From Phocaeicola paurosaccharolyticus JCM 15092 (GTDB lineage: Bacteria > Bacteroidota > Bacteroidia > Bacteroidales > Bacteroidaceae): a stretch of 64,000 nucleotides of DNA. Made by a program: the position numbers and the translations under genes. The notes beneath the pieces are model-generated. The model worked only from the letters and a program-made list of their open reading frames with translations. It was not told the DNA's origin and searched no databases. The DNA is taken from contig NZ_BAJR01000001.1 in NCBI RefSeq assembly GCF_000613805.1, positions 62,001-126,000 of the forward strand. The letters run 5' to 3'. This document shows positions 15,219 to 35,238 of this stretch, piece after piece. Within the stretch, counting starts at the first letter, position 1. Each line of letters begins with the position of its first letter.

Positions 15219-16827
15219 ATGAAACAATTAATTCTACTTTTATCCATTATGTTGTCAGCCGGGTGCGTATGGGCGCAGGATACTCCAGAGTCGAGTGTCA
15301 TTATCAATAGTACCACAAAGGCTTCAACTACACAAACAGAGTATGGTAAGGTATGTGGTTATATCTATAAAGGTATATATACATACAAAGGTATTCCTTA
15401 TGCACAGGCAAAGCGTTTTGAAACGCCAAAGGCGCTAGAACCATGGTCTGGCATACGATCATGCAGGACATATGGGCCATCTGCACCACAACCTACTTCA
15501 AATCGTTGGAACAATGATGCCGGTGCATTTTTCTATTTATGGTATGAGGGCCGTCAGAGTGAAGATTGTCTTTGTCTAAATGTATGGACTAAAGGAATTA
15601 ATGATGGTAAAAAACGTCCTGTATTAGTGTGGTTCCACGGAGGAGGCTTTGCTGAAGGCTGCGGGCAAGATCATCCAGGATATCATGGGCATAATCTTGC
15701 AGATAAGGGCGATGTGGTAGTAGTAACAGTAAACCACAGACTTAACACTTTAGGATACACAGACTTGTCGGAATATGGCGATAAGTACAAATATTCTGGG
15801 AATGTAGGTAATATAGATCTTGTAGAAGCACTAAAATGGGTACGTGATAATATTTCTAATTTTGGAGGCGATCCAAACTGCGTCACCATATTTGGTCAAA
15901 GTGGTGGAGGAGCTAAAGTATCAAGTATGCTCTGTATGCCTATGGCTAAGGATTATTCCATCGCGCAATGATTATGAGTGGATCTGGATTTATGTGTGGG
16001 CAGAATAAGGAAATAGCGCATAAGATAGGAAGACGTACAGTGGAGCTTCTTGGATTGAATAAAGATAATATTGATGATATACAAAAGGTAGATTATGAGA
16101 AACTATATGAGGCGAATACAAAAGCATGAGTGAAATGTCTCAGGAAATAAGACGTAGCCCATCAGGACGTTTTGTTTCATGGGAGCCTATTGTTGATGGA
16201 GATGCTTTACCGGATGCACTTTGGGAAAATGGGTCAGAGAAGATCAGCAGTAATGTTCCGCTCATCATAGGTTCTACATTGAATGAGTTTGTTGGTGGTA
16301 ATAAACCTAAAGCAGGAATTAATACTTGGGATGATGTAAAGGCAGATTTAGGTAAGACTATGGGTAAAGATGCCGGAGAATTTGTTGATGCATTCCGCGA
16401 AGCATATCCTGCTGCCGGCATTGATGAAATTTATCGTCTTGATACAATGGTACGTCCTGCTGCTTTACAGCAATTGCACAAAAGAGTAGCCGATAATGGT
16501 GCACCTGTGTGGAATTATCTTTTCACATATCAGTTGAAAGGTGAGGATGGAAATTTCCATGCCGGACACAACGGAGATATTCCTTTCTATTTCAATAACG
16601 TTGTTAGAAGTGCTAATATGACAGGAGCAACTCCGGATGGAATTGCACTTGGCGATACAATGAGCAGTGTATTGATAAATTTTGCACGTACCGGTAGACC
16701 TTATGCACCAGGAATGCCGGAGTGGAAACCTTCAACAGCAAAGGAAGTGAACACAATGATATGGAATACCCCTAAAGTAATGCAGGTATCTAATCATGAT
16801 AAGAGACTTGTTGAACATATGAAATAA
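15219..16827 (+). pseudogene. Type B carboxylesterase (CE10-like), frameshifted twice
   Basis: A secreted carboxylesterase/lipase-family hydrolase interrupted twice. The first part (from 15219, signal peptide ending AGCVWAQ) has YKGIPYAQAKRF, the EDCLCLNVW motif, the oxyanion hole HGGGFAEG and the nucleophile elbow FGQSGGG. It leaves frame at about 15955, where GATTATTCC gives a stop but one extra T gives DLFHRAMIMSG, the expected family continuation. A second one-base loss near 16125 ends the middle part at ANTKA, and the last part resumes with MSEMSQEI. The end portion carries the acid (FVGG region) and the histidine in FHAGHNGDIPFYF. Corrected length is 536 residues, normal for the family. 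It probably deacylates glycans in the PUL, as the esterase upstream may. Confidence 0.82.
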
Positions 16828-17014: not shown

Positions 17015-20000
17015 TCAGTTATCATTATTATTGTAATTTGAGCGGATATACTGTGTAGGTGTTACACCAAATGCATTTGTGAAACACTTTGAGAAATACC
17101 CGGTATTTGAAAAACCTACCATGTACATGACTTCCGAAACCGAGAACTGTCCGCCACGAAGTAGTATAGATGCTCGTTTCATTCTGATATCTCGAATATA
17201 TTCAACAGGAGTGAGACCAGTCATATACTTAATCTTTCTATAAAGCATTTTATCACCTATACCCAAAGCCTGTTGTAACTTACTAACATTGAAATCGCTA
17301 TCACTTATATGTTCTCCAATAATAGAAATGGCTTCAAGTAGTAAACGTTCGTCACTTTTACTATTTATCGTACTCTTTTCAGTGCTTGTATGTATTTCAT
17401 TATCAGAATTTATATCGTCAACTTCTAATTTATTTGATTCCAGTATTTCTTCATTTATATCAATAGGAATTTGTATCACAAAAGCATCACCATCATTTGC
17501 CTGTACTACGCCGATACTTCCACTATATTTTTCCACATATTGGCTTATCATATAAAGCATAGGAGTATAATCATCTGGTGCGTCGGGCATCTGAAGAGCA
17601 TAACGCTGGAACAGAAATGGGCATATTTCACTTGGAATATGCATAGTATTACTCTTGGCTGTTATTATCAGTTTTTTATTAGATGATAAATAATTTATAG
17701 ATATATTCACAGATCCACCACTCTCTGAATGCTGTATTACATAGCCTAGCAGAATACAATATAAAGAGTTGACTTCAGTTATATCGGATTTTTCATAGAG
17801 ATGAGGAGTAAAAGAAGAAAATGTGAGTTTTATATCTTTCTTAGCCCCTTCTGATTTCATCTCATCTACCATTTGATGAGATAATTCAACGATATCCAAA
17901 AGAGTATCATTCGAGGTAAATTTGTTGGAAGTACTGGCTTCAGAGGCTTCTCTAATGAGAGAGTTTAGTCGTGTCGACTCATGACGTATTTCCTCAAGAT
18001 GATGCAACATCTCCTTTTTAGGATTAGAACCTAGCAACTGAATCATTGGGTTCATAATAGAGCCTAATGATACTCTTATCTCTGAATATATATACTGATA
18101 ATAGCTAATACGACTCTGCGATTCTTGCATAATTTTTACCTTAGCTTCATGTTCTTGCCTAAGTCGTCTTCTTACCATATAATAATGTATCACTAAATAT
18201 GCTAAACCTACAATAAGTATAAAATATAGCAGTTTCATCCACCACATTAGATACCATGGTGGAAATATGTCTATCTCTAAGCTATATACTTCATCTTTTA
18301 TATTACCAAATCCATCTATAGTGAATACTTGCAATGTATAGTTACCATATGGTAGTCCGTTATAGCTAACTTGGTATGTTTCAGAATTCAACCGTTGCCA
18401 GCTATTATCAACTCCTTCCAATTTATACGCATATAGATGTTGTACCTTATTTAAATAGGGTAAATCAGAAAACATAAACACAAGATTATTTTCATCAAAA
18501 GATAGTTTAATGTTTTTATTAAGAGTTCTATTAGGTTGATCAGACAGTTGTTGTTCATTGACCAATATTTCAGACAATACTAGTTGAGCACTATCATGCC
18601 TCTTATCAATAGATGTAGGATCGAGAATCATCAGTCCGTCTATGCTCCCTATGTAGAATCGTTTGGTATTAGGTGAATATAATCCTGATGTTGCAGCGTA
18701 AAAAGGTATTTTATATAGTTCTATTTCTTTTGAATTCTTTATTATTCGATATTCATTTTGGCTGATAGCCCACAATTGATTACCCACACTGTTTATGGTA
18801 AGTATCTTCTCTTTTGAAGTACCATACCTCAATTCATCAATCTTTTTCCCATCAGTCGCGAAATGTAGAAAGCGTCCGGATGAAGCAACCCATATTTCAT
18901 TTTGATTTACAATAGTCATAGCATCAATATTATCTTTCATTACATTATGCACTTTACAGTCTATTGTATTTATTCTCATCAGGCCTTGTGAGGAGGTTGC
19001 CCATATTTGTCCCTGTTTGTCGAGGGCTATATGACTAAAATGGGTTTCAGGCATAAGTACTATATCAGCTTCAATTTCTTTATCATTAGAACTAAGCAAA
19101 CGTTTTTTTGAGATAATATATAGTCCATTATATGATGCTATCCACAAGCGCCCATGCTCATCTTCTGTCATACCGTAAGCCCATCTCGCTGTGTAATGAT
19201 GATTACTGTCTGTTACAACTATGTTGCGTAGTTGCCTAGTAGAGGAAAGATAAAGATTGATTCCTAAATCAGTTGATATCCATATATTATGCTCTCTATC
19301 TTCGAAAAATGAACGTACTCTATTGTGAGTAATTGGATATTGAGGATTGCCATCACGATACCATGTCCAATTGCCGTCAATAGGGTAACGTATCAAACCG
19401 CTTGATCCTCCTATCCATAGTGTATGTTCGCTATCTTCGAAAACATTTTCAATATAATTGCCCGTAGTGTACCCGGTCATCTGAAAGATAGAATTATATT
19501 TAAAAAGGGGGTGATGTGCTGATGTTGAGAAACCATTATCAGTGCCCAACCATAAATTGTCGTTGCAATCTAGAAAAGTACGCCATATTATATTGTTGGG
19601 TATACTTCTTGAATCTTTAGAGTCATGGTATAGGTGTAAGATATCGGAGTCAGATTTTATATATAATCCATTGTCAGTTCCTATATATAAACGGCCTTTC
19701 TTATCTTGTGCTAATGTCTTAATAGATATATTACGCAATAGCAATTCTTCTGAGAACTCATTATTACTTGCATTATATGCAAAAAATCTTCCAAAAGCCC
19801 AAATCCAGTATTTATCTTTTACATTTCTGTCAGAGATTATGGCACTTATATACGATTTACGTTGACCGGCTACAGGTATTTCATGAAAAGATTTTCCATT
19901 AACGAAGTATAGGCCGTATAGTGTACCAACTAGAAGCCCTTTATGCGTAGACACTATAGAATATATGTCCGTTATTTTATTATTTATAATATCAACCTTA

Positions 20001-20440
20001 CCGCTATTTGGCGTGTAGCAATAAAGTCCTTGGTCTGCCCCGAAATATAAACGATTATCATGTTTTACAATTGTACGGGCATTTGTTATATGTGGCTGAA
20101 TCGGATAGTGATAGACAAGAGTTCGACGGTTGAATATGGCTATTCCTTTATCACATGCCATATAAATGGAATCACCAACGATTGATAGATCGAATACCGA
20201 ATGTGGTGAAGAGCTGGACATATGGGCACGAGGGAAGCTATTATATCCATTATAACAATAAAGCCCATTATCGAGAGTGCCAATCCATATTAAGCCTTCA
20301 TCATCTTGTGCAAAGCTAGATACTGTGTTGCAGCCAGGTATTTGATGATTCCTAAATGAAATCTCTTCAGCTGCTTTGGCATGTTGAATAGTATTATATA
20401 GTAATAGAATCAGAAAAAAAAGGGTTAACCTAAGTTTCAT
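17015..20440 (-). CDS. HTCS-like PUL regulator with degenerate kinase and no receiver domain
   Basis: The 1141-residue protein has the front and back of a hybrid two-component sensor. After a signal peptide (ending HAKAA) come about a dozen Reg_prop propeller repeats (IWIGTLDNGLY, LWLGTDNGF, IWISTDLGINLY), a Y_Y_Y domain (about 650-725), one membrane helix (about 734-757) and a C-terminal AraC-type HTH (about 1035-1135, ending FSKCFTNAFGVTPTQYIR). The middle has decayed. The phospho-acceptor region reads SEIRVSLGSI where HTCS proteins have SHELRTPL, the N box, G1 (AKSNTMHI) and G2 (YTPMLYMI) lack the Asn, Asp and Gly residues that bind ATP, and only about 40 acidic residues stand where the receiver should be. 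It is divergent from susC and is the expected activator of this PUL. Confidence 0.88.
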   Translation of the reverse strand: MKLRLTLFFLILLLYNTIQHAKAAEEISFRNHQIPGCNTVSSFAQDDEGLIWIGTLDNGLYCYNGYNSFPRAHMSSSSPHSVFDLSIVGDSIYMACDKGIAIFNRRTLVYHYPIQPHITNARTIVKHDNRLYFGADQGLYCYTPNSGKVDIINNKITDIYSIVSTHKGLLVGTLYGLYFVNGKSFHEIPVAGQRKSYISAIISDRNVKDKYWIWAFGRFFAYNASNNEFSEELLLRNISIKTLAQDKKGRLYIGTDNGLYIKSDSDILHLYHDSKDSRSIPNNIIWRTFLDCNDNLWLGTDNGFSTSAHHPLFKYNSIFQMTGYTTGNYIENVFEDSEHTLWIGGSSGLIRYPIDGNWTWYRDGNPQYPITHNRVRSFFEDREHNIWISTDLGINLYLSSTRQLRNIVVTDSNHHYTARWAYGMTEDEHGRLWIASYNGLYIISKKRLLSSNDKEIEADIVLMPETHFSHIALDKQGQIWATSSQGLMRINTIDCKVHNVMKDNIDAMTIVNQNEIWVASSGRFLHFATDGKKIDELRYGTSKEKILTINSVGNQLWAISQNEYRIIKNSKEIELYKIPFYAATSGLYSPNTKRFYIGSIDGLMILDPTSIDKRHDSAQLVLSEILVNEQQLSDQPNRTLNKNIKLSFDENNLVFMFSDLPYLNKVQHLYAYKLEGVDNSWQRLNSETYQVSYNGLPYGNYTLQVFTIDGFGNIKDEVYSLEIDIFPPWYLMWWMKLLYFILIVGLAYLVIHYYMVRRRLRQEHEAKVKIMQESQSRISYYQYIYSEIRVSLGSIMNPMIQLLGSNPKKEMLHHLEEIRHESTRLNSLIREASEASTSNKFTSNDTLLDIVELSHQMVDEMKSEGAKKDIKLTFSSFTPHLYEKSDITEVNSLYCILLGYVIQHSESGGSVNISINYLSSNKKLIITAKSNTMHIPSEICPFLFQRYALQMPDAPDDYTPMLYMISQYVEKYSGSIGVVQANDGDAFVIQIPIDINEEILESNKLEVDDINSDNEIHTSTEKSTINSKSDERLLLEAISIIGEHISDSDFNVSKLQQALGIGDKMLYRKIKYMTGLTPVEYIRDIRMKRASILLRGGQFSVSEVMYMVGFSNTGYFSKCFTNAFGVTPTQYIRSNYNNNDN

Positions 20441-20525
20441 ATCTTAAAGGAATTATGATTTGTATGACTACAAAGTTGATAAAATTAATAAATATCGGAA
20501 ATTATAGATCGCGCTTTTTTCCCAT

Positions 20526-20552
20526 TTGTCTTTTTTCTAACCCTATTTGTCT
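20526..20552 (+). promoter_or_regulatory. Paired 21-bp-spaced TTGTCT repeat upstream of susC
   Basis: TTGTCT occurs at 20526-20531 and 20547-20552, each preceded by CCC and AT bases (CCCATTTGTCT, CCCTATTTGTCT). The 21-bp period equals that of the repeats before the esterase gene at 14126. It lies in the divergent region shared with the HTCS-like gene, 32 bp upstream of a weak -7 box for susC, and is probably the binding site of that regulator's AraC domain (inference). Confidence 0.6.
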
Positions 20553-20584
20553 AAAATAAGCCCTACAGTAGATATTCTAATTGA

Positions 20585-20592
20585 TACTATTG
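20585..20592 (+). promoter_or_regulatory. Candidate -7 promoter element of the susC operon
   Basis: TACTATTG matches TAnnTTTG with one mismatch, as expected for an activator-dependent promoter. It lies 62 bp before the susC start and downstream of the paired repeats. Confidence 0.4.
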
Positions 20593-20654
20593 CAGAATAA
20601 AGTATCAGTTTATTGGTAAACTTTAATAATCTAATAAAAACTCAAATTAAAATT

Positions 20655-23600
20655 ATGGAAAAGAGACTATTTTCTCTAGTACTTTGTTGCTTATGTTGGT
20701 CTATGACAATATGGGCTCAAAAACAAAATGTAAAGGGAACAATTTTTGACGGTCAAAAAGAACCGTTAATTGGAGTTTCCGTAAAAGTGCAAGGTACTAC
20801 ACTTGGCACATTATCGGATTTGGATGGCAATTATGCTATCAACGTAAACAAAGGTGATAAACTTGAATTCAGCTATATTGGGTTCAAGACTCAGGTTGTT
20901 GTTGTAAATAAGGATAAGATTGACATAATAATGCTTGAAGACGCAACCGTTCTTGATGAAGTTATAGTAACAGGATATGGCACAGTAAGTCGTAAAAACT
21001 TAACAACATCTATTGCAAAAGTCAAAGCCGATGAAGTTTCAAAAACTGGAACAACAAACATGGGACAGATGCTTATGGGACGTGCAGCAGGATTGCAGGC
21101 ATCTCTATCAAGTTCTCAGCCTGGTGGTGGTGTAAATATGACCATTCGTGGTGGTGGACAGCCTCTTTATGTTGTAGATGGCATAGTAATGCCAACAAAT
21201 GAGTTTATTGAATCGGCAGGTGGTACAACAACAGTAATGCCAAACAGTATAAATCGTTCAGGATTAGCAGGCATAAACCCTTCTGATATTGAATCAATAG
21301 AAGTCCTTAAAGATGCAAGTGCTGCTATATACGGTGTCAATGCCGCTAATGGCGTCATTCTTGTTACCACAAAACGTGGCAAACAAGGTAAGATGAAGAT
21401 TAGCTATGAAGGATCTGTTGCTTCAGTAAAGAACTACAAATACATAGAGCAACTTAATGCTCAGGATTATATGACTTATGCAAACATCTTTAAAAAAGAA
21501 CAATATCTGTACAATAATGGCATGGTTCCTTATGGAACAAAAGAATATGATAATGGTAATTCTGATGTATTTACCGCTGAGCAGATAGCTAATGCCGAGA
21601 ACACAGATTGGGCAAGTTATATACTTAAAGATGGAAGCATTTCAAGCCATAACGTAACAATTCAGGGTGGCGCAGAACGAATAAATTACTATGTGTCTGG
21701 GAACTATTATAAGCAAAATGGTTCTGTTGCTAGTTCAAGTTACGAGCGTTTTGTACTTAGAGCCAATGTTGGGGCACAACTATTTAAATGGTTAAAACTT
21801 ACAACTTCAATAAACTATAATAATAATAATAATAATAATGGTTCTGTAGGTGGTACTACAAGTGGAAGAGGTGCACAAGCGAGCGGTGCACTTACAGCAG
21901 CACTTTCATATCCATCAAATCTACCTGTTTTTGATGCTGATGGGAAATATACGTCTTATCTTACTATACCAAATTCAGTAGGTATGCTTGATATGACCAA
22001 CAGATCTTATCTTTCTGGTTTCAATGCAAACTTTACTTTTGATTTTACCATTATCCCAGAGATGTTGACAGCAAAAGTACTATATGGTTACAATTCTGAA
22101 AATACAAAACGTAATGTATATATACCTAAAAATGTATATTTTGACCAGATGTACAAATCACGTGGTAGCTTAGCACGTGGTGACCGCGATAATAGTACAA
22201 TGGAAGCTACATTCTCTTTTAACCATGACTTTTTCAATAAAGCACTATCTGTAAATGCAATGGTTGGTATGGGACGTTACTTTACTAATTCAAATGGCCT
22301 TGGTGTTTCATATAATGAAATAAACGATGTTATTGGGAATGATAATATTTCAGCTGCAACAGGCGATTTTAAACCAACATCATATCGAAGAGCTGATGAG
22401 AAACGTTCACAATTCGGAAGCTTGGCACTTGACATTCTTGATCGCTATGTAATAAATGCATCAGTACGTCGCGATGGTACTGACAAATTCTTCAAGAACA
22501 AAAAATATGCTTGGTTCCCTTCTGTATCAGTAGCATGGAAAATATTCAATGAGAACTTCATGGAAGATGTAGATTGGGTAAATCTGCTCAAATTACGTGC
22601 TTCATATGGTGAAACAGGTAATGATAATCTTGGCTCAAGTCTTTATGGTGCTTACGGAGCTTTTGGTAACAAAATCGGATTTGATAATAATGGAACTACA
22701 TATGTACCATACTATCTTATTAGCCAGGATTATCCAAACGTTTCATGGGAAAAGACAATTATGAAGAATATTGGTCTTGATTTTTCTATATTTAAAGACC
22801 GTATCAGTGGTAGCTTTGACTATTTTGTGAATGATGTAACAGATATGCTTGGTTATGCCAATACAGCTGGTTTGTCTATGTTTGCTACATATCCTATTAA
22901 TGGTGGACATATCCGCCGTTATGGTTGGGATGCAACTATCAATACAAATAATATTCAGACACCAGATTTCAAATGGAGTTCAGCAATAACACTTTCTCAT
23001 TATAACTCTACATGGAAAGAACGTTTCCCAAATTATGATTATAACGAATATCAAATTCGTAAAGATGAACCTGTAAATGCTCTATATTTCTATCGTACTG
23101 AAGGCATAATAAATACTGAAAAGTCAAATTGCCCAACAACTCAACCGGAAAAATATAGTTATCCAGGATGTCCTATTTTAAAGGATCTTAATGGAGATGG
23201 TGAAATAACAACAGGTGATATAGATATGGTAAATGTTATTCCTGCACTATATTGGGGATTTGGAAATACATTTAACTACAAGAACTGGGATTTGGACATC
23301 TTTGTATATTCACAGTTAGGACTAAAGAAATATAACTACTCATACGATTGGAGTGACGGACGTGAACTTGCTAATCAAACTACTAATCAAAGTACAATAA
23401 TAAACCAGGTATACAATTCGCAGACAAACCCTGATGGTAATCTTCCAGGTATAGCATCACGCTTGTCTAATGTATCGTTACCAGGTGGTTGTGGAACCGA
23501 TGTATATTATCAGGATGCAAGTTTTCTTCGTGTTCGTAATATAACACTTGGATACACATTTAATGCAAAGAATCTTGGAGCTCTTCGTAACTACTTTACA

Positions 23601-23756
23601 AGCGTCCGTATTTATGCTGATGCATTGAATCCATTTACATTCACAAGCTTTGATAATTTCGACCCTGAGGTTACAACAGGTGGTTCGTATAAAGGTGGTA
23701 AAGCTGAATACCCAATGACACGTACCTTCTCTTTAGGAGTACAGGTAGAATTCTAA
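20655..23756 (+). CDS. SusC-like TonB-dependent outer-membrane glycan transporter
   Basis: A 1033-residue SusC/RagA-family transporter that imports oligosaccharides in complex with SusD, energised by TonB. The start at 20655 puts the signal peptide first (MEKRLFSLVLCCLCW...IWAQ); an in-frame ATG at 20613 would bury it behind 14 residues. Residues ~24-105 are the carboxypeptidase-D-like regulatory domain (GTIFDGQKEPLIGVSVKVQG). The TonB box region is DEVIVTGYGT, the plug holds TIRGGGQPLYVVDGI and IEVLKDASAAIYG, and the barrel ends with an aromatic residue (VQVEF). A run of seven AAT codons encodes seven asparagines near residue 389. SusD follows after 33 bases. Confidence 0.95.
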   Translation: MEKRLFSLVLCCLCWSMTIWAQKQNVKGTIFDGQKEPLIGVSVKVQGTTLGTLSDLDGNYAINVNKGDKLEFSYIGFKTQVVVVNKDKIDIIMLEDATVLDEVIVTGYGTVSRKNLTTSIAKVKADEVSKTGTTNMGQMLMGRAAGLQASLSSSQPGGGVNMTIRGGGQPLYVVDGIVMPTNEFIESAGGTTTVMPNSINRSGLAGINPSDIESIEVLKDASAAIYGVNAANGVILVTTKRGKQGKMKISYEGSVASVKNYKYIEQLNAQDYMTYANIFKKEQYLYNNGMVPYGTKEYDNGNSDVFTAEQIANAENTDWASYILKDGSISSHNVTIQGGAERINYYVSGNYYKQNGSVASSSYERFVLRANVGAQLFKWLKLTTSINYNNNNNNNGSVGGTTSGRGAQASGALTAALSYPSNLPVFDADGKYTSYLTIPNSVGMLDMTNRSYLSGFNANFTFDFTIIPEMLTAKVLYGYNSENTKRNVYIPKNVYFDQMYKSRGSLARGDRDNSTMEATFSFNHDFFNKALSVNAMVGMGRYFTNSNGLGVSYNEINDVIGNDNISAATGDFKPTSYRRADEKRSQFGSLALDILDRYVINASVRRDGTDKFFKNKKYAWFPSVSVAWKIFNENFMEDVDWVNLLKLRASYGETGNDNLGSSLYGAYGAFGNKIGFDNNGTTYVPYYLISQDYPNVSWEKTIMKNIGLDFSIFKDRISGSFDYFVNDVTDMLGYANTAGLSMFATYPINGGHIRRYGWDATINTNNIQTPDFKWSSAITLSHYNSTWKERFPNYDYNEYQIRKDEPVNALYFYRTEGIINTEKSNCPTTQPEKYSYPGCPILKDLNGDGEITTGDIDMVNVIPALYWGFGNTFNYKNWDLDIFVYSQLGLKKYNYSYDWSDGRELANQTTNQSTIINQVYNSQTNPDGNLPGIASRLSNVSLPGGCGTDVYYQDASFLRVRNITLGYTFNAKNLGALRNYFTSVRIYADALNPFTFTSFDNFDPEVTTGGSYKGGKAEYPMTRTFSLGVQVEF
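21819..21839 (+). repeat. (AAT)7 trinucleotide repeat inside susC
   Basis: Seven consecutive AAT codons encode polyasparagine in the early barrel region of the transporter. Slippage here would change the length of a probable extracellular or periplasmic loop in steps of one residue without shifting frame. Confidence 0.85.
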
Positions 23757-23789: not shown

Positions 23790-25412
23790 ATGAAACGCAA
23801 TAATATTATTCACACAATGCTATACATCTTACTGATGGGCATTACGATTACAGGTTGTGAAAATGACTTTGATGCAAAAATATATGGACAGTTGTCTACA
23901 AATAACTTCCCGGCTACAGCAAGTGACTATGAAGATTATATGATGGAATGTTATGTGCCATTCTCGGTTAACTGGAGTTATGCATTATCTGCACAACAAC
24001 ATAATTTCTATGTATCCGAAGGAGGTTTACACCGCTGCTTTGATTCTACAACTGATGAAAGCTCGGCATGGGTAATAGGTTCATGGGGTTGGTTGTGGTC
24101 AACGATAGGTGCTGCTCAGTTTGATGACATGAAACTACTAGGACGTGCTTCAGTTGGTGCTCCAAGCCATTTTGAAAAAGTACGCGACATAAGCCGCTTT
24201 ACAAAGATTATTGACCAATTGGAAAAAGCTGATTCAAAAATACTTTCTGAGGAAAAGAAGAATGAGTTTGTTGGTGAAGCCCGTCTTTGCCGCGGTATGA
24301 TGATGTACTACCTTTTAAACATGTACGGACCGGTTCCTGTCATAGTCGATGCTAAGCTTCTAGGTGATACAATTAATGAATCACATCTTGTACGTCCGGA
24401 GTTGGATGTTATGACTCAATATATAACAGATGACTTAGAATATGCCAGTCAGCATGTAGCTGAAAAACAATCACAGAAAGGACGTTATACAGCCGATTAT
24501 GCTCGTTTCTGCCTTATGCGTCACTATCTAAATGAAGGTTATCATATGTCAGGTTATTACCAGAAAGCTTATGACATATTTGGGCAGTTCAAAGGTAACT
24601 ACGATCTATATAAAGGAGGTGAAAATCCATATGCAGATCAATTCAAGATTGGTCATGAATTTAATTGCGAGACAATTATGGCTGTAAGTTGTCATAGTAA
24701 TGCTACAGGCGAGAGTAAAGAGGGTAACTTCAATCCTTTCTCTTGGTATTCATTGCCTTGGGATGTATCAAAAGTAGATGACAAGGGCAACCCTACACCT
24801 TTTGCAAATCAAGGTGGTGGATGGGGTATGGTATTCAATATCTCAAAACATTTTTATGACACATTTGAACCAGGTGATAAACGTGCTGAAACAATTATTA
24901 CACAATACTATAGTTTTATGAATGGATGGGTTACAGAGAAGGAACTTGGCAATCGTTGGGATGGATTCATCATTAATAAATATCCTATCGAATCAGCTAC
25001 TTCCTTCCAAGGTACAGATATTCCATTGGCACGTTGGGCAGATGCCTTAATGCTATATGCTGAAGCAGATGTAAGAGCTCATAATGCTGTCTCACAAAGT
25101 GCAATAGACTGTGTTAATAAAGTTCGTAACCGTGCCGGTTTACCTAATCTTTCTGCTGATAAGACTGCTACAGCCAATGACTTCCTTGATGCATTACTTA
25201 CCGAACGTGGACATGAACTATATTATGAAGGATGCCGCAAGGTTGACCTTATCCGATTCAACAAGTATTATACTATAATGAATAAGATAGGACGCACACC
25301 ATCTAGTCAGTATTTCCCATTGCCAAACTTTGCAGTAGAGCAAGCTGCTTCAAGCGGATATGAACTGACTCAATATTATACTCGTGAAAATTATGATGGA
25401 CCAAAGAAATAA
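23790..25412 (+). CDS. SusD-like glycan-binding surface lipoprotein
   Basis: A 540-residue RagB/SusD-family lipoprotein forming the lid on the SusC pore. The N terminus is a lipobox signal (hydrophobic stretch ending GITITGCEN, lipidated Cys about residue 23). The family's helical TPR-like scaffold is visible in EARLCRGMMMYYLLNMYGPVPV and the C-terminal signature motifs in IPLARWADALMLYAEADV, VNKVRNRAGLP and LLTERGHELYYEGCRKVDLIRF. It is translated from the susC transcript. No surface glycan-binding protein gene follows, which is unusual for galactan loci, and the GH53 gene overlaps its last codons. Confidence 0.95.
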   Translation: MKRNNIIHTMLYILLMGITITGCENDFDAKIYGQLSTNNFPATASDYEDYMMECYVPFSVNWSYALSAQQHNFYVSEGGLHRCFDSTTDESSAWVIGSWGWLWSTIGAAQFDDMKLLGRASVGAPSHFEKVRDISRFTKIIDQLEKADSKILSEEKKNEFVGEARLCRGMMMYYLLNMYGPVPVIVDAKLLGDTINESHLVRPELDVMTQYITDDLEYASQHVAEKQSQKGRYTADYARFCLMRHYLNEGYHMSGYYQKAYDIFGQFKGNYDLYKGGENPYADQFKIGHEFNCETIMAVSCHSNATGESKEGNFNPFSWYSLPWDVSKVDDKGNPTPFANQGGGWGMVFNISKHFYDTFEPGDKRAETIITQYYSFMNGWVTEKELGNRWDGFIINKYPIESATSFQGTDIPLARWADALMLYAEADVRAHNAVSQSAIDCVNKVRNRAGLPNLSADKTATANDFLDALLTERGHELYYEGCRKVDLIRFNKYYTIMNKIGRTPSSQYFPLPNFAVEQAASSGYELTQYYTRENYDGPKK

Positions 25413-26442
25413 TATAAAAGTGAATTTAAAAAAGTTATTATTAGGACCTCTCTGTCTCATGTTTGCACTGCAAACATGGGGCGGAGAGCCTTTTTGGCTC
25501 GGTGCCGATGTTGCAGGAGCCAACATGATGGAGAAAAGAGGAGGCTTTATTTTTAATAAGGCAGGTAATAAACAAGAGTTAGTTGCAATGATGCATGACA
25601 TGGGTCTAAATGCTATAAGACTGCGTGTATGGGTTAATCCAAAAGGAGAATGGTGCAATATGGAAGACCAACTCGTTATAGCAAAACGTGCAGAAGCACT
25701 AGGTATGCCAGTTATGATAACCATACATTATAGTGATACATGGGCCGACCCCGGGCATCAGACAATCCCGGAGGCATGGAAAGAATATGACTACACAAAG
25801 ATGAAAGAGGCTGTAGCCAACCATACTATTGAAATATTGAAGCTATTCAAGAAAAACAATATTGATGTAAAATGGGTACAGGTCGGTAATGAAACAACTC
25901 ACGGTATGTTGTGGCCTATGGGTAAGGCAGAGGATAACATGGAGCAGTATGCAGGTCTTACGGAGGCAGGCTGTAGTGTTATAAAGGGTATTTATCCAGA
26001 TGCTAAAATAGTTATTCATATTGACGGGGGCGTAGACCCTATTCGTTATAACAAGATATTCAATGCATTCGAGAAATATCATGTAAATTATGATATGATA
26101 GGGATGAGTTGTTATCCTTACTGGGATCAGGATCAAGGGCTTGAAGCAAAGGATGAGCATACTATTATTGATTGTATAAACAATATTAATGGTCTATACA
26201 AGAAGTTTGGTAAAGAGCTTATGATTGTCGAAACAGGATATGATGCTGACTATCCAGAGGCAGGTTATAAATTCATTACGGACCTTATTAAAGCAGCACG
26301 TACTCAAACAGGAGGGCACTGTCACGGAGTATTTTACTGGGCGCCGGAAATAGATGGTGGCTATAAACTTGGAGCTTTCAGAAATAAGCGCCCTACGAAA
26401 ATTATGGATGCCTTTATTGAGGCTTCAAAAAAAATAGAGTAA
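25393..26442 (+). CDS. GH53 endo-beta-1,4-galactanase
   Basis: A secreted endo-galactanase that cuts beta-1,4-galactan, the side chain of pectic rhamnogalacturonan I. The GH53 motifs are clear: FWLGADVAGANMMEKRGG, GLNAIRLRVWVNPKG, HYSDTWADPG, the acid/base Glu in WVQVGNETTHGML (codon at 25891) and the nucleophile Glu in MIVETGY (codon at 26230). The start is ATG 25393 or 25396, overlapping susD by up to 20 bases, and is followed by a signal-like segment (LKKLLLGPLCLMFALQTWGG). A GTG at 25384 is also possible. At 349 residues it is a normal single-domain enzyme. Its place right after susD defines the locus as a galactan PUL. Confidence 0.93.
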   Translation: MMDQRNNIKVNLKKLLLGPLCLMFALQTWGGEPFWLGADVAGANMMEKRGGFIFNKAGNKQELVAMMHDMGLNAIRLRVWVNPKGEWCNMEDQLVIAKRAEALGMPVMITIHYSDTWADPGHQTIPEAWKEYDYTKMKEAVANHTIEILKLFKKNNIDVKWVQVGNETTHGMLWPMGKAEDNMEQYAGLTEAGCSVIKGIYPDAKIVIHIDGGVDPIRYNKIFNAFEKYHVNYDMIGMSCYPYWDQDQGLEAKDEHTIIDCINNINGLYKKFGKELMIVETGYDADYPEAGYKFITDLIKAARTQTGGHCHGVFYWAPEIDGGYKLGAFRNKRPTKIMDAFIEASKKIE

Positions 26443-26593: not shown

Positions 26594-28960
26594 ATGAAGA
26601 GACCCGTAGCATTTTTCATCATTTTTGCATTGATTTGTTATTCTTCATATGCCCAAAACAGATGGAAAATTGATGTGACAAATGTAGACACTACTGTAGT
26701 CAGAGGGCATTTAAAACTTGGAGGAATAAACCCTGATGGAGATAAGATTGTAGTAAATAGTCACTATCTTGAGCGTAATGGAGAACCTATCATTCCGATT
26801 TTTGGTGAGTTCCACTTCAGCCGTTATCCTGCAGATCAATGGGATCAGGAAATCAAGAAAATGAAAGCTGGTGGCATCACTCTTATAGCTACATATGTTT
26901 TTTGGAGTCTTCACGAACCATCCGAAGGACACTTTTATTGGGATGGGGACCTCGACTTGAGACGATTTGTTGAGTTGTGCGGAAAGAATGATATGGATGT
27001 TATTGTGCGTGTTGGACCATTTGACCATGGTGAGTGGAGGAATGGCGGTATTCCAGACTGGCTATATGGCCGTCCTATTGAGATTCGCAGCAATGATCCA
27101 GAATACCTAAAATACGTAGAGAGATTATATGGACAGATAGGTCAGCAGCTTAAAGGCCAGTTTCATAAAGATGGAGGACCTATAATAGGTGTACAGATTG
27201 AAAATGAGTACCAGCACTCTGCAGCACCTTGGGGATTCACATATGACGGAGCTCCTAGAGAACTTACGGTTGCACGCAGGGACGTGGGAGTTACACAGAT
27301 TCAGGTAGGTATCAACAAGAGTGGTAATGAGAATTCTGCTATAGGTGCAGTGCATATGAAGACACTTAAGAAGCTTGCAGTTGACGCAGGTCTAATTGCT
27401 CCACTATACACAGCTACCGGATGGGGATATGCCACAATCATTGAAAAAGAAAGTCTTCCTGTAATGTCAGCTTATGCTTATCCTTATTGGGTAGATGAGC
27501 CAACCCCTAGCCCATTCTATCTATATAAGGATATTCACGCTAAGCCTGATTATGAACCAGTAAGCTATAACCCTGCTCTATATCCATCATTAGGAGCTGA
27601 GCTAGGAACAGGAATGGCTGTAGTATACAAGAAGAGACCACGCGTTCCACAAGAGAGTCTTCTTCCTATGATGGTTCGAGAAATCGGTAGCGGTAGCAAC
27701 GGACTAGGTTTCTATATGTACCATGGCGGTACTACCCCATCTATAGGTAATCATTTTTACACTGAGGCTTTCGGATTGAATCTCAAATCATATGATTACC
27801 AGTCACCACTTGGAGAGTTCGGATTCCCTGAAGGTAGTTTCTATTCTCTGAAGGTATTCAATTACTTCCTTAGAGACTTTGGAGCAACATTGGCCCCATG
27901 TATGACTATACTTCCAAAAACTAATCCGACTACCCCTGCAAATCTAAACACATTGAGATATGCTGTGAGGAGTAACGGAGAGAGCGGATATGTATTCATG
28001 CACAATTTCCAAGATCATCTTAAAACCAGTAATATAGCTGATAATAGGATTGAAGTAAAGGCTACTAAAGGAACATACTCTTTTCCTAATAGCGGGACAT
28101 TCGATCTGAATGTAGGATCAGTTGCAGTGCTTCCTTTCAACATCGATTTCGGTGGTGTAAAATTCAAGACAGCAATGATTCAACCATTCTGTAAGGTAGG
28201 AAACGGATACGTTTTTGTTTCAATGAAAGGTTTGAAGCCGGAAATTGTTTTGGAAGGGCGCCATAAGGTCAAAGGAGCAAAAGCGACAGTGAAAGGCGGT
28301 GATACAGTTGTATCCCTACCATCTGGTAAAGCTGTAGAATTCAGTATCGATGGTGTTGAGTTCTTGTTAATCCCATTTGAAGATGCATTGAATGCGTACA
28401 CAGTCAATAACAGGCTATTTATTTCTAATGGTATTGTATGTGGACATGACACGCATGAACTTATCACTACAAGCCCAGAGACCGAGATTACTGTATGGCC
28501 AGCTGCTAACATTTCTGTGAACAATGGTTCTATTACTAAAATTAGTTCTGCGTTCGGTTCAAAGTGGAAAGTCTTTCTCCAGGAAGTAAAACCTGCTCTT
28601 GAAATAAAGAAGACTGATGACAGACACATAGTTCTTGATGCATCTGGCATGAAATGGGACGGAGTGAATGAGGTATATCTAAGCTTTGATTATGTTGGAG
28701 ACCGTGGTATATGTATGATGGACGGAGTGCTTCAGACAGATAACTTCTACACCAGCAGACCTTGGCTTATGGGCCTTAAAAAGTATACCGACACTTTGAA
28801 GGATAAAGAGATGTATTTCTATTTTGTTCCTATGCAGAAAGATGCACCATACTTAAGCTACCTTGATAGTATCCCGGATTTTGGTGGAAAGAAAGAGTAT
28901 CTTAGCCTACCTATGCCAAAAGTCATAACAGAATACAAAGTGACTCTTGTAGTTAAATAA
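26594..28960 (+). CDS. GH35-like beta-galactosidase, paralogue 1
   Basis: A 788-residue secreted enzyme (signal peptide ending SSYAQ) with a GH35-type TIM barrel: GEFHFSRYPADQWDQEIKKM, YVFWSLHEPSEGHFYWDG, VRVGPFDHGEWRNGGIPDWL and GGPIIGVQIENEYQ. The acid/base is probably E205 in IENEY. The nucleophile is less certain, with E336 in GAELGTGM, conserved in the paralogue, the best candidate. The C-terminal half is beta-sandwich-like. It should remove terminal galactose from the oligosaccharides made by GH53. A near copy lies at 30267-32636, and the two genes begin with almost identical DNA. It is preceded by a footprint of the CE1 gene tail and followed by a strong terminator. Confidence 0.8.
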   Translation: MKRPVAFFIIFALICYSSYAQNRWKIDVTNVDTTVVRGHLKLGGINPDGDKIVVNSHYLERNGEPIIPIFGEFHFSRYPADQWDQEIKKMKAGGITLIATYVFWSLHEPSEGHFYWDGDLDLRRFVELCGKNDMDVIVRVGPFDHGEWRNGGIPDWLYGRPIEIRSNDPEYLKYVERLYGQIGQQLKGQFHKDGGPIIGVQIENEYQHSAAPWGFTYDGAPRELTVARRDVGVTQIQVGINKSGNENSAIGAVHMKTLKKLAVDAGLIAPLYTATGWGYATIIEKESLPVMSAYAYPYWVDEPTPSPFYLYKDIHAKPDYEPVSYNPALYPSLGAELGTGMAVVYKKRPRVPQESLLPMMVREIGSGSNGLGFYMYHGGTTPSIGNHFYTEAFGLNLKSYDYQSPLGEFGFPEGSFYSLKVFNYFLRDFGATLAPCMTILPKTNPTTPANLNTLRYAVRSNGESGYVFMHNFQDHLKTSNIADNRIEVKATKGTYSFPNSGTFDLNVGSVAVLPFNIDFGGVKFKTAMIQPFCKVGNGYVFVSMKGLKPEIVLEGRHKVKGAKATVKGGDTVVSLPSGKAVEFSIDGVEFLLIPFEDALNAYTVNNRLFISNGIVCGHDTHELITTSPETEITVWPAANISVNNGSITKISSAFGSKWKVFLQEVKPALEIKKTDDRHIVLDASGMKWDGVNEVYLSFDYVGDRGICMMDGVLQTDNFYTSRPWLMGLKKYTDTLKDKEMYFYFVPMQKDAPYLSYLDSIPDFGGKKEYLSLPMPKVITEYKVTLVVK

Positions 28961-30266: not shown

Positions 30267-32636
30267 ATGAAAAGACTCATAGCATTTTTCATCATTCTTG
30301 CATTGGTTTGTTTCTCAGCTTCTGCCCAGAAGATATGGAAAACAGATGTGACAAATGTAGACACTACTGTAGTCAGAGGCCATCTGCAACTTGGAGGAGT
30401 AAGCCCTTCCGGGGGAACAATATCTGTGAACAGCAATTATATTGAGAGGAATGGGAAACCATATATCCCAGTAATGGGAGAGTTTCACTATAGTAGATGT
30501 GCAAAAGAGAATTGGGATAAGGAACTCAAGAAGATGAAAGCTGGTGGTATATCAGTGGTGGCCACCTATCTTTTTTGGAACTATCATGAGCCGGAAGAGG
30601 GTAAGTTTAGATGGGATGGTAATGCTGATTTAAGGGCTTTTGTGAAGCTATGTGATGAGAATAATCTTGATGTAATTGTACGCATAGGCCCCTATTCTCA
30701 TGGTGAGTGGCGTAATGGAGGCCTTCCCGACTGGCTTTATGGTCGTCCTATAGAGGTAAGGAGCAATGATCCGGAGTATATGAGATATGTTGAACGCTAT
30801 TTCAAACAGGTTGGTGAACAACTTACCGGTCTTATGTATAAGGATGGAGGACCTATCATTGGTGTCCAACTAGAGAATGAATATCAGCATGCAGCTTCCG
30901 GATGGGCTTTGGGATATGGCCGTTTCAGCGAACTTACAGCAGCAAGAATGGATGTAGGAATTACACAGGTTCAGGCGGGTATAAATAGTGAAGGTAATGC
31001 CAACTCAGCAATAGGAGCTTCTCATATGAAAGAACTTAAGCGTCTTGCTAAGGCTGCCGGTATTGATACTCCTCTATATACTGCAACAGGTTGGGGCTTT
31101 GCTACTATTGTGGAAGATGGCAGCATCCCTGTGATGGCAGGGTATGCATATGCTGCATGGACTCCTGGTAATGTAGCAAGTGATTTTTATCTTTTCAAAG
31201 ATATACGCAAGCATCCTGATTATGCTCCGGTTAGCTTTGATACGTCTAAATATCCTGCAATGGCTGCAGAGATAGGAACAGGAATGATGACAAGTCATGA
31301 AAGAAGATCTATTGTTCCTCATGAAAGCTTTCTTCCATTTATGGTAAGAAATGTAGGAAGTGGAAATAACGGACTTGGGTACTACATGTATCATGGTGGT
31401 AACAATCCTTTGTTTGAGGGCAGCAACTTGTCTTATACGGATGGTTCAGTCAGTATGCGTTCCTATGATTATCAATCTCCTTTGGGAGAGGATGGTTATC
31501 CTCGATTAGGATATAAGTCACTAAAGTTGATAAATTATTTCTTGCAAGATTTTGGTGAGTCTCTGGCTCCTATGGTAACTGTTATCCCAGACTCAAATAC
31601 ATCAGATTCGAAAGATGTTACTACATTGAGATATGCAATTCGTAGTAATGGATATGGGGGATATGTATTCATGCATAACTTTCAGGATAGATGTCAGACT
31701 CAAAACCTGGGAAATAACAGGATTGAGGTTCAGACAAAGTCGGGAAAAGTATGTATCCCTGCCAATAATACGTTTACTTTGAAATCAAAGATGTCAGCAA
31801 TTTTCCCATTTGGAGTTGAATTTGGAGGTATCCCTTTCAACTATGCAACTGTTCAGCCTTACTGCAAGGTGGGTAATGGTTTTGTATTTATTTCACTTGA
31901 TGGAATTGCTCCTGAAATCGTACTTGATGGAAAGCACTTTGTTAAGGGAGTGAAATCATCTTTCTCTCAGGGACGTACCTACATAAAATTAGTTGCTGGA
32001 CAAGCTTGTGATTTCAAAATTGATGGAGTAGATTTTCTTGTAGTACCATTTGATATGGCTCTTAATTCATACAAGTATGGCGATAGACTTCTATTTTCAG
32101 AAGGTATTGTAGTCGGATCTGAAAAAGCTGAGATTATCACAACATCATCATCAGTAAATATTGTAGTTTGGCCCGAGGCTAAACTCTCTTCAGAGAAGGG
32201 AACAATTACCAAGAGCAATTCATCTATCGGGTCATCGTGGACTCTTAACATGCCTGAGGTTAATCCTAACATCTCAGTTAAAAAGAGCGGCGACAGATAC
32301 TTAATAGTAGATGCTTCGAATGTGAATTGGGATGAACTTAGTGAGTTATATATCAAATTCAATTATGTTGGTGACAGAGGTGTATGCCTTATGAATGGAT
32401 ATGTAAAGACAGATAATTTCTATGTTGATGCTCCATGGATAGTTGCTTTGAAGAAGCATAGTGAAGGGCTCCGTGAACATAATATGTATTTCTATTTCCT
32501 TCCTATGGACAAAAACGGACAATATCTAAAGGACCTTTCCAAACTGCCGGATTTTGGGAAATCCAAGGAATATCTTGATTTAGGTACTCCTGAAGTAATA
32601 CCAGAATACAGAACAACATTATTTATAACTAAATAG
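30267..32636 (+). CDS. GH35-like beta-galactosidase, paralogue 2
   Basis: A 789-residue secreted enzyme, the close paralogue of the gene at 26594, colinear along its whole length. The signal peptide ends FSASAQ. Barrel motifs correspond one to one: GEFHYSRCAKENWDKELKKM, YLFWNYHEPEEGKFRWDG, VRIGPYSHGEWRNGGLPDWL and GGPIIGVQLENEYQ, with E205 the probable acid/base and E335 in AAEIGTGM aligned with E336 of paralogue 1. Substrate-side loops differ, for example PWGFTYDG versus GWALGYGR after the acid/base, so the pair may differ in linkage or branch preference (inference). Only 41 bases separate it from the CE1 gene and one base from the ORF of the next gene, so these three are probably cotranscribed. 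Confidence 0.8.
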   Translation: MKRLIAFFIILALVCFSASAQKIWKTDVTNVDTTVVRGHLQLGGVSPSGGTISVNSNYIERNGKPYIPVMGEFHYSRCAKENWDKELKKMKAGGISVVATYLFWNYHEPEEGKFRWDGNADLRAFVKLCDENNLDVIVRIGPYSHGEWRNGGLPDWLYGRPIEVRSNDPEYMRYVERYFKQVGEQLTGLMYKDGGPIIGVQLENEYQHAASGWALGYGRFSELTAARMDVGITQVQAGINSEGNANSAIGASHMKELKRLAKAAGIDTPLYTATGWGFATIVEDGSIPVMAGYAYAAWTPGNVASDFYLFKDIRKHPDYAPVSFDTSKYPAMAAEIGTGMMTSHERRSIVPHESFLPFMVRNVGSGNNGLGYYMYHGGNNPLFEGSNLSYTDGSVSMRSYDYQSPLGEDGYPRLGYKSLKLINYFLQDFGESLAPMVTVIPDSNTSDSKDVTTLRYAIRSNGYGGYVFMHNFQDRCQTQNLGNNRIEVQTKSGKVCIPANNTFTLKSKMSAIFPFGVEFGGIPFNYATVQPYCKVGNGFVFISLDGIAPEIVLDGKHFVKGVKSSFSQGRTYIKLVAGQACDFKIDGVDFLVVPFDMALNSYKYGDRLLFSEGIVVGSEKAEIITTSSSVNIVVWPEAKLSSEKGTITKSNSSIGSSWTLNMPEVNPNISVKKSGDRYLIVDASNVNWDELSELYIKFNYVGDRGVCLMNGYVKTDNFYVDAPWIVALKKHSEGLREHNMYFYFLPMDKNGQYLKDLSKLPDFGKSKEYLDLGTPEVIPEYRTTLFITK

Positions 32637-32646
32637 AATGACCATT

Positions 32647-35238
32647 ATGAAAAAGATAATTGAAACTTTATTGATAGCCTCTTTTACAGTATTATCAATA
32701 TCTGATATCTCTGCAAAATCGGGCGAGTTGGTCTATCAGGATTCTAAAGGAATAATACGTTGGAAATCAGACAAAACACCTATGGGGATATTTGGTGCCA
32801 ACTATTGTATTACTTCTTCTTGTGACTTCCGCTCTGTTGGTTATGTAGGCAGAGATTATAAGAGTATGATAGATGAGGACCTAATTCATTTCTCAAGGAT
32901 GGGATGGCAGGCCCTCCGTCTCTGTCTATGGGGTGATTGGGAATGTTGCGACAAAAATGGCAATCTTATTGAAAACGAGCATCTAGATGCTTTGGACTAT
33001 CTGATTGCAAAGTCTTCTGAGAGAGAAATAGCTATGCTTCTCAGCCCTATTGTGACTTATAGCGCCGGCTTTCATGAGGCATACGACATGAAGTTCCCTG
33101 GACTTTCAGCCCACTATACTAAGGAAGAACTGATTACGAATCCTAATGCTCTTGCAGCGCAGTGCAACTATATGACTCAACTTCTCAATCATGTTAATCC
33201 GTATACTGGCAGGCAGCTTAAGTATGAGCCCTGGATTACATTCATAGAGTTGATCAACGAACCTGCAATGCTAATTGACAAGCCGTCTGAAACAATTCAT
33301 TACATCAATAAAATGGTTGATGCAATTCGTAAGACCGGATGTCAAAAGATTACTTATTACAATGTAAGTCAGGATTTTCGTGTTATTCCTATACTTAAAC
33401 AGACTAAAATCCAGGGAGGATCATATGCATGGTATCCTACTGGTTTGAACCATGGTTATACATTAAAGGGTAATATACTTCCATTTGTAGCATCGTATCC
33501 ACAGATTAAGGAGGATATAGGCAGGCGCTCAAGGTTGGTATACGAATTTGATACTCCAGACGTTACTGAAGGATATCTTTATCCTGCAATGGTAAGAGAG
33601 TATCGAGAGGGAGGAATCCAGTTTACAACAATGTTTACCTATGATTTCCTTGCTACAGGTAGAATGAATCTAAGTTGGCAGACACATCATCTCAACATGG
33701 TATATACTCCCGAAAAGGCTGTCAGCTCTATTATTTCTGCAGAGGCAATGAATAAACTTCCTATTGGAAAGGATTATGGTGAATATCCTGAAAATAGTCA
33801 ATTTGATGATTTCCTTGTAGATTATGATAGGAGGTTGAGCCTATACAATACAGATAAAGCTTTGATGTATAGTGCAGATATACTGGATATATCACCAAAG
33901 AATCCTACTGCGTTAAAGAGAATTGTAGGTTCTGGAAGTTCAACATTAGTTAAGACTGTTGGTAATGGTATCTATTTCCTTGACAGAATAAGTAATGGCA
34001 TGTGGAGAATGGAGGTTCATCCGAATATCTTTGAGGTCAGTGATCCTTATATGAATCCAAGTATTACACGCCCCTCTTATCTTGTAGATAATCAGCCTCG
34101 TCAGTTTAAATTATCACTTCCCGGTATCAATGGTAATACTGTAGTTAAGAGACTTGATGGAAAGGTGGTTGATTCTCGTGATAATAAAATTATTGTTTAT
34201 CCTGGAGTATATATAGTATCCGATAAAGACTTCGCTATGGTTGATCTTCCTAAAAAAGTTGGTGGAATCAAAATGGATGAATTTGTTACAGCAAAGCCTT
34301 CAATGCCTGAGAAACCAGTTCTTATATTTAAACAACCTCAGGAATTTATAGCGGGCAAGCCATCCACTGTGACTTGTAAAATTTACTCTGCTGAGCAGCC
34401 TGAGTCTGTTACTATGTTTACAGGAGTAGGCCTTTGGGGAAGTAGACGTATTACAATGAAGCAGACAGGATATCATATGTATTCAGCAGAGTTTCCAGTG
34501 TCTGAGAATCCATCGGTTCAGGAATATCGTATCGGCATAACTGTTGCTGGAAAGAAGTACCTTTTCCCTGATGAAATTTCACTTTATCCTGATGATATAG
34601 GATTTGACTCAGCAACGTCAGGATATAAGGTGAAGATTGTTGATACTAAGTATAGTCCACTAAATGTATTTAGTGCTGAAAATGATAAGCAGCTTGATTT
34701 CTCAAGATATTATAACAGTGTGGTTTCAATAATGAATACTCCTAAGTTTGAAAGACATACTATTTACGATAGAAAAAGTGAGGCTGCTGTAGAGATAGCT
34801 TATGATTCTTTTGTTGGAAGTTTGTATCCCGGACCTGCTGATATATCATTCTCGAAATACATTGTATCTGAACTTAAAGCTAGAACAAATGCCAAGGTTC
34901 TTCCTATTGGTCTTAATATGGAAGCCTCAGGCAAATGTAAAGTGAAAGTGATATTTACACAATCAGACTGTAGATCATGGTCAGTAGAGGTTCCATTAAC
35001 TGAGAAGATGGCTGAGCATAGCGTGTCTTTGGAAAGCCTTGTGCCGGATGACGCAGCAATGCTTCCTCGAGATTTCCCTGGAGTATCTTCTTATTTCTAT
35101 CCAAGACTTAATAAGCTAGGTGAAACAATAGATTGGTCGAAGGTTGAGAAATGTACAGTTTCTCTTCGTACAGAAGGCCTTGACAATCCAAAGGAAAATG
35201 GCGTTTTGAGAGTAAAGAGTATTGAGCTGACTTATTAA
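32647..35238 (+). CDS. Secreted clan GH-A-like glycosidase, possibly GH147-like
   Basis: An 863-residue protein with a signal peptide (MKKIIETLLIASFTVLSISDISA); ATG 32647 is preferred over 32638 because the signal starts there. Residues ~25-400 look like a clan GH-A TIM barrel: GIFGANYCITSSCDF, GWQALRLCLWGDWECCD, the acid/base-type motif FIELINEPAM, and LVYEFDTPDVTEGY at the position of a strand-7 nucleophile Glu. After it come beta domains (IYSAEQPESVTMFTGVG) and a C-terminal beta-sandwich that may bind glycan. I do not recognise the family with certainty. GH147 beta-galactosidases occur in galactan PULs and have a similar layout, so that is the first comparison to make. It ends the operon at a strong terminator. 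Confidence 0.65.
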   Translation: MKKIIETLLIASFTVLSISDISAKSGELVYQDSKGIIRWKSDKTPMGIFGANYCITSSCDFRSVGYVGRDYKSMIDEDLIHFSRMGWQALRLCLWGDWECCDKNGNLIENEHLDALDYLIAKSSEREIAMLLSPIVTYSAGFHEAYDMKFPGLSAHYTKEELITNPNALAAQCNYMTQLLNHVNPYTGRQLKYEPWITFIELINEPAMLIDKPSETIHYINKMVDAIRKTGCQKITYYNVSQDFRVIPILKQTKIQGGSYAWYPTGLNHGYTLKGNILPFVASYPQIKEDIGRRSRLVYEFDTPDVTEGYLYPAMVREYREGGIQFTTMFTYDFLATGRMNLSWQTHHLNMVYTPEKAVSSIISAEAMNKLPIGKDYGEYPENSQFDDFLVDYDRRLSLYNTDKALMYSADILDISPKNPTALKRIVGSGSSTLVKTVGNGIYFLDRISNGMWRMEVHPNIFEVSDPYMNPSITRPSYLVDNQPRQFKLSLPGINGNTVVKRLDGKVVDSRDNKIIVYPGVYIVSDKDFAMVDLPKKVGGIKMDEFVTAKPSMPEKPVLIFKQPQEFIAGKPSTVTCKIYSAEQPESVTMFTGVGLWGSRRITMKQTGYHMYSAEFPVSENPSVQEYRIGITVAGKKYLFPDEISLYPDDIGFDSATSGYKVKIVDTKYSPLNVFSAENDKQLDFSRYYNSVVSIMNTPKFERHTIYDRKSEAAVEIAYDSFVGSLYPGPADISFSKYIVSELKARTNAKVLPIGLNMEASGKCKVKVIFTQSDCRSWSVEVPLTEKMAEHSVSLESLVPDDAAMLPRDFPGVSSYFYPRLNKLGETIDWSKVEKCTVSLRTEGLDNPKENGVLRVKSIELTY

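Follow-up and report, generated by a model that had tools for sequence, protein, structure and literature searches.

How does a transmembrane regulator with the build of a hybrid two-component system (HTCS) carry a signal from the periplasm to DNA when the parts of its phosphorelay appear to be gone? This question is raised by a gene at positions 17015-20440 (minus strand) of the window, by which we mean the whole 64,000-nucleotide stretch of Phocaeicola paurosaccharolyticus DNA that was analysed. An earlier note, made from the sequence alone, had described the product as an HTCS-like protein with a decayed kinase and no receiver domain, and had proposed that it works as a one-component sensor. 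HTCS proteins are usually described as single-polypeptide phosphorelays, and a lineage that drops this relay repeatedly and in stages, yet keeps its sensor and DNA-binding domains, makes the need for phosphate directly testable. We now consider it quite likely that a pectic-galactan utilisation locus is activated here by a membrane-anchored one-component regulator, and that this regulator evolved from an HTCS by loss of the phosphorelay.

Domain anatomy and missing phosphorelay residues

The gene is an intact open reading frame (ORF) of 1141 amino acids with no internal stop and lies beside susC, just as the earlier note had it; this divergent susC-like gene begins at 20655. Pfam searches at E<=10 find Reg_prop in seven stretches, Y_Y_Y at residues 668-725 and HTH_18 at residues 1057-1133 (E 5.4e-18), the last of these being an AraC-type helix-turn-helix (HTH) domain encoded at 17042-17272 on the minus strand, as are all of the domains described below. 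The periplasmic sensor, which is composed of the propellers and Y_Y_Y (residues 37-730; 18251-20332), is closest among solved structures to 3ott and 3va6 (phmmer, E ~4e-102), which we take to be BT4673 of Bacteroides thetaiotaomicron. A single membrane helix follows (residues 738-756; 18173-18229), which is the top hydropathy window of the protein and is helical in the predicted model. By these measures, the HTCS-type sensor, the one membrane helix and the AraC output that the earlier note recognised are indeed retained.

The structure predicted for residues 733-1141 (mean pLDDT 74.9, pTM 0.57) comprises, in order, a long helix emerging from the membrane, a DHp-like helical hairpin (residues ~757-833; 17942-18172), a CA-like alpha/beta domain (residues ~846-992; 17465-17905), a low-confidence linker (residues ~1000-1023, pLDDT <50; 17372-17443) and the HTH. 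This linker, which is all that separates the CA-like domain from the HTH, coincides with an alignment gap at the site of the receiver in HTCS proteins, and no receiver fold is present in the model. HisKA, HATPase_c and Response_reg have no Pfam match in the regulator, even at E<=10. The claim that no receiver lies between the kinase-like part and the HTH is upheld both by the model and by the negative Response_reg search with a hidden Markov model (HMM), which had been set beforehand as the refuting test. A hidden receiver is ruled out by the Pfam scan, by an HMM scan of the cytoplasmic region and by the predicted model.

Alignments place Ser786 at the position of the phospho-acceptor His, Tyr900 at that of the N-box Asn, and Ser930 and Thr932 at those of the G1 Asp and Gly, assignments that, like all residue columns in such diverged sequences, depend on the alignment. 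Together with the missing HisKA and HATPase_c matches, they agree with the earlier reading that the acceptor His has been replaced and that the N, G1 and G2 boxes have lost their ATP-binding residues.

A weak NCBIfam match to the CreC kinase covers residues 780-984 (E 8.9e-5; 21.5 bits versus a cut-off of 356). Among 18 aligned cytoplasmic regions, HATPase_c is detected in 13 and HisKA in 8 at E<=0.01, a threshold at which the window protein's own region matches neither (structure alignment A1 has 18 chosen rows, and A3 has six). In Foldseek searches the DHp-CA part is matched by histidine kinases, at a high root-mean-square deviation for the whole part (~10 A in most top rows), and by ThkA CA structures with TMt values of 0.84-0.86. 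These matches and the modelled fold indicate that the kinase ancestry of the regulator is real. The term 'decayed kinase' therefore fits the residues, which are degenerate, but not the fold, which is kept in the model and in the Foldseek matches; in relatives the kinase part is under purifying selection.

The regulator shares with the HTCS proteins of Bacteroidota a Reg_prop/Y_Y_Y sensor, one membrane helix, a DHp-CA fold, a C-terminal AraC HTH, susC/susD neighbours and, possibly, a direct-repeat operator, but it differs from them in having no phospho-acceptor His, no ATP-binding residues and no receiver. With these three of the HTCS-defining features tested absent, the regulator is not an HTCS by definition, though it is HTCS-derived.

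Graded losses among relatives

The pattern of residues was examined in a comparison set of 110 rows, eight of which are pieces of paralogues from the same genome (some from one gene) and some of which are near copies. In all 84 receiver-bearing rows the N-box Asn, the G1 Asp and Gly, and the receiver Asp and Lys are kept, as is the His in all 82 of these rows that cover its column. The remaining 26 rows are receiver-less and retain the His only in L119 and L134, the latter ending at a contig end. Both His and receiver are absent from every one of the 16 CA-bearing members of the clade that includes the window protein (hereafter the window clade), where the His is replaced by Gln (8), Arg (3), Ser (2), Asn, Val or Glu (1 each), and where single ATP-site letters survive sporadically (Asn in 3/16, Asp in 1/16, Gly in 2/16). 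Five broken, cut or short sequences (L076, L079, L109, L110 and L111) were omitted from the first alignments, and L079 was restored in later ones. In L111, from Bacteroides reticulotermitis, the orthologous regulator frame is broken after 639 amino acids.

Within its own genome the regulator also stands apart. Of the genome's 18 Y_Y_Y matches, 17 are followed by one to Response_reg, 0.3-1.3 kb further downstream and with contig and strand shared, and the regulator is the sole exception; one of the Y_Y_Y matches lies below the cut-off, and several of the paired genes are split over frames. A receiver encoded separately nearby is ruled out, as there is no Response_reg match anywhere on the contig (C89) that carries the window. 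Further HTCS-like genes split over short frames occur on contigs C50, C82, C85 and C87 (loci L149, L154-L156, L158 and L159), so that either many such genes are decaying or the draft contains frame errors.

The earlier note had called for a search for other regulators with the same loss, and receiver-less, His-less and kinase-less relatives were all found. A family-wide search of 399 genomes gives 27 matches at E<=1e-70, of which 20 have a receiver, one is cut (G059) and six are receiver-less (G000, G028, G150, G219, G384 and G393); the occurrence of the same architecture in other genomes rules out a local artefact. With a BT4673-type query, 33 of 158 genomes of one genus (g3) give a match at E<=1e-250, including eight of the BT4673 type, one of them identical to L047 of B. 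faecis, and one L119. Partial matches in G561 and G623 were left out, and no receiver count was taken for those long proteins of this genus that the simple receiver patterns miss although their length suggests a receiver.

When arranged by what is missing, these proteins form a series. L119, whose genome (genus g3) is a single contig, has no receiver and keeps intact His and ATP motifs. BT4673-type proteins have no receiver and carry Asn in place of the His, with ATP motifs intact (6/6 in the 110-row alignment). Window-clade members have lost both the His and the ATP residues and retain a CA-like region. Finally, a search of 100 genomes of a second genus (g6) yields ten matches at E<=1e-140, five of which (L131, L163, L164, L165 and L166) have no CA domain at all.

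These five kinase-less proteins, of which L163 is from a single-contig genome, fall within the window clade, and L079 (identical to L135 over the tree columns) lacks the CA domain outside it. The kinase-less relatives are 953-971 amino acids long, and only 70-112 residues separate the membrane helix from the HTH, versus 280 in the window protein. Scans of the whole L131, L163 and L079 proteins find Reg_prop, Y_Y_Y and the HTH, and no kinase or receiver families at E<=0.01. In the predicted model of the cytoplasmic part of L163 (pLDDT 76.0), a single long helix is followed by a short one, a linker of low confidence and the HTH. Judging from these sequences, the loss of the whole kinase in some relatives suggests that a change of shape by itself carries the signal to DNA. 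An even smaller relative of 845 amino acids (L208/L212, genome G522) has propellers, membrane helix, short linker and HTH, without Y_Y_Y, DHp, CA or receiver, and could be either an orphan or a remnant.

Trees were built from 60, 43, 35 and 36 chosen rows, with eight fragments omitted and L131 also omitted from two of three trees. The careful tree of 35 rows supports the window clade at 100/100, and in it the receiver state and the kinase-less state each need four changes, three of each being forced by well-supported branches. For the receiver state, the 60-row tree needs three changes (three forced) and the 43-row tree needs four (two forced); a tree of the HTH only has little resolution. The approximately unbiased (AU) test rejects a single clade of all receiver-less forms (p 1.5e-6) and a clade of the BT4673 type with L119 (p 4.9e-11), but it does not reject the window clade and the BT4673 type as one clade (p 0.074), and we therefore count at least two losses of the receiver. 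Deletion of the kinase domain probably occurred three or four times.

The ratio of nonsynonymous to synonymous substitution rates (dN/dS) in the CA region of degenerate relatives is 0.08, 0.08 and 0.09 in three pairs, all of which include L048, and 0.23 in another, while one pair is saturated. In four pairs of the BT4673 type the ratio is 0.01-0.08. These values indicate that the pseudo-kinase part in relatives is under purifying selection.

Sensor similarity and GH53 plus SusC/SusD neighbours assign the regulator, by sequence, to a group of galactan regulators whose members include Bacteroides orthologues of BT4673 without a receiver. Contig searches of the genomes find GH53 at 13 of 20 receiver-less loci, several of which are short, with L039, L041 and L042 showing SusC and SusD 69-74% like those of the window instead. 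GH53 is matched at all of eight further loci, among them the five kinase-less ones of the window clade. The BT4673 type, represented by L047 (1638 bits to 3ott over 750 amino acids), shares with the window protein the 3ott/3va6-type sensor, the AraC HTH and a galactan polysaccharide utilisation locus (PUL) with GH53 and SusC/SusD, as well as the absent receiver and the replaced His. It differs in keeping its ATP-binding motifs and in having Asn at the His position, where the window protein has Ser and has lost the ATP boxes. The suggestion that the regulator is unlike known HTCS proteins therefore does not hold for all of them, since the Bacteroides orthologues of a protein that the literature calls an HTCS also lack both receiver and His.

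Passages on BT4673 describe it as regulating BT4667-4673, a PUL for pectic galactan, and, in the same review, as a protein that binds galacto-oligosaccharide (PMC8002723), and cells with a disrupted BT4673 are stated to reach 21.6% of wild-type growth on pectic galactan (PMC3243724). Because of this growth defect, one member of the group can be regarded as a working positive regulator. A passage of PMC3878776 attributes a kinase and a receiver to all identified HTCS proteins, with BT4673 listed among them, and one in PMC3243724 states that only most HTCS proteins have all of the domains. A figure legend in PMC5238430 gives the BT4667-4673 PUL and an HTCS, and a portion of PMC11784079 names as an HTCS a gene that adjoins the Segatella copri galactan PUL and is itself not regulated. 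No description of a receiver-less HTCS was found in literature searches limited to openly licensed papers, and the word 'receiver' is absent from PMC10766802, PMC3404733 and PMC11784079. In the PDB the molecule of 3ott is named 'Two-component system sensor histidine kinase', a name from which 'response regulator' is absent, and its depositors may already have noticed the missing domain.

Proposed signalling without phosphate and its rivals

The regulator lacks an acceptor His, an ATP site and a receiver, and relatives at similar loci have no kinase domain at all, so that a His-Asp relay inside the regulator is very unlikely. The simplest remaining route would be a rearrangement of a dimer that the membrane helix and the coiled coil transmit to a pair of HTH domains. 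A galacto-oligosaccharide delivered by SusC/SusD, which is the presumed ligand because of the orthology with BT4673 and the GH53 locus, would bind the periplasmic propeller/Y_Y_Y sensor and alter the packing of the dimeric sensor, the membrane helix and the DHp-like coiled coil. The dimer would then move its two tethered AraC-type HTH domains onto a head-to-tail pair of sites, perhaps that at 20521-20552, and so activate susC. The pseudo-kinase domain would serve as a structural spacer or dimer element, with no phosphate passed. SusR and proteins of the CadC/ToxR type likewise combine a sensor and a DNA-binding domain in one membrane protein that works without phosphotransfer; they have other types of sensor and HTH, and the topology of CadC/ToxR is reversed.

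Could phosphate instead be supplied by a partner? An intact HTCS or kinase might pair with the pseudo-kinase regulator or modify it, and the genome does hold 17 further Y_Y_Y matches that lie close to a receiver match; the DHp-like hairpin is also retained. The regulator itself has neither acceptor His nor receiver, however, the GH53 locus is kept by relatives without any CA domain, and neither a kinase nor a receiver protein is found among ten neighbouring ORFs scanned at E<=1e-5, all of which make this arrangement very improbable. The CA domain might also gate the HTH by binding or hydrolysing a nucleotide, without any phosphotransfer. This is plausible for the BT4673 type, whose CA domain keeps the N-box Asn and the G1 and G2 motifs and has the low dN/dS values given above, but ATP gating cannot be general because most of the window clade has lost the ATP-site residues and the kinase-less forms (L131, L163-L166 and L079) have lost the domain itself; we hold it to be very improbable as the explanation here. 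Lastly, the gene could be a pseudogene or an assembly artefact whose receiver is missing by accident. The branch of the window protein (1.28) is among the longest of its clade, where L055 reaches 1.44, its nearest relative is only 39% identical, and a carboxylesterase gene nearby is broken. Against these signs stand the intact frame and conserved HTH, the many other genomes that share the architecture, and the dN/dS values of those pairs of relatives that are informative, which lie well under 1, and we give this explanation hardly any weight.

Several observations count against a one-component activator derived by loss of the relay. The nearest relative found shares only the 39% identity just mentioned, though one of the searches may omit very near genomes, and at this distance it enters none of the dN/dS pairs, which are of relatives only; two very close pairs (dS <0.08) give CA ratios of 0 and 0.32. 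The kinase-less L165 (genome G475) still has the His within a normal-looking DHp motif. BT4673-type proteins retain their ATP-site motifs, and ATP binding may still be of use to them. That BT4673 itself has no receiver is deduced from L047 and seven more genomes of the genus Bacteroides rather than from its own full sequence. Neither GH53 nor SusC is matched in the 20 kb covered at L208/L212. The putative operator repeat is weak, since of 2000 shuffles 21 reach it at the 21-bp spacing and 363 do so when any spacing between 12 and 44 is allowed.

On balance, the one-component reading that the earlier note advanced is strengthened by the patterns of loss in relatives, including the kinase-deleted forms. 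We lean, with somewhat more reserve, towards a broader proposal, namely that the galactan-PUL branch of HTCS proteins has been converted more than once to phosphate-free one-component signalling, in stages that removed the receiver, the His, the ATP site and then the whole kinase. It would follow from this staged conversion in living species that a propeller/Y_Y_Y sensor can drive an AraC HTH directly across the membrane, and the relay may be an expendable addition to a conformational switch. The natural series of receiver-less, His-less, ATP-less and kinase-less forms supplies ready-made deletion variants with which the transmembrane sugar sensors of gut bacteria could be dissected.

The galactan locus and its putative operator

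The genes next to the regulator, all on the plus strand, begin with the divergent susC-like TonB-dependent transporter (20655-23756; Plug, CarbopepD_reg_2), for which we use the first ATG rather than the TTG at 20613 of the listed ORF. A susD-like gene (23790-25412; SusD_RagB) is followed by a probable GH53 endo-beta-1,4-galactanase (25384-26442; Glyco_hydro_53, E 2.6e-73), listed with a GTG start although the true start may lie later, and by two probable GH35 beta-galactosidases (26594-28960 and 30267-32636; Glyco_hydro_35). An 866-amino-acid protein encoded at 32638-35238 has no Pfam match at E<=1e-5, and similar genes occur in many related loci. On the other side of the regulator, the broken carboxylesterase-family gene (15219-16827) consists of two open frames of 250 and 233 amino acids.

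Between the regulator and susC, the putative operator consists of two half-sites on the plus strand, CCCATTTGTCT (20521-20531) and CCTATTTGTCT (20542-20552), which form a direct repeat with 21-bp spacing. A passage of PMC3878776 describes predicted HTCS operators as direct repeats with an average of 21 bp between sites. With the window excluded, which had supplied the pattern and was included in an earlier motif scan, a TTTGTC pair at spacing 21 (11/12 letters) occurs at 4 of 10 window-clade loci, at one of the two loci L047 and L079, and at 4 of 28 receiver-bearing loci. No other spacing between 14 and 29 exceeds 2, 0 and 2 loci in the same sets, apart from 14 and 28, which also reach 4 in the receiver-bearing set. 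As sequence evidence, these counts do no more than suggest that the repeat is the site bound by the regulator. An imperfect inverted repeat with 10-nucleotide arms and a 12-nucleotide gap lies between the putative operator and susC, at 20579-20610.

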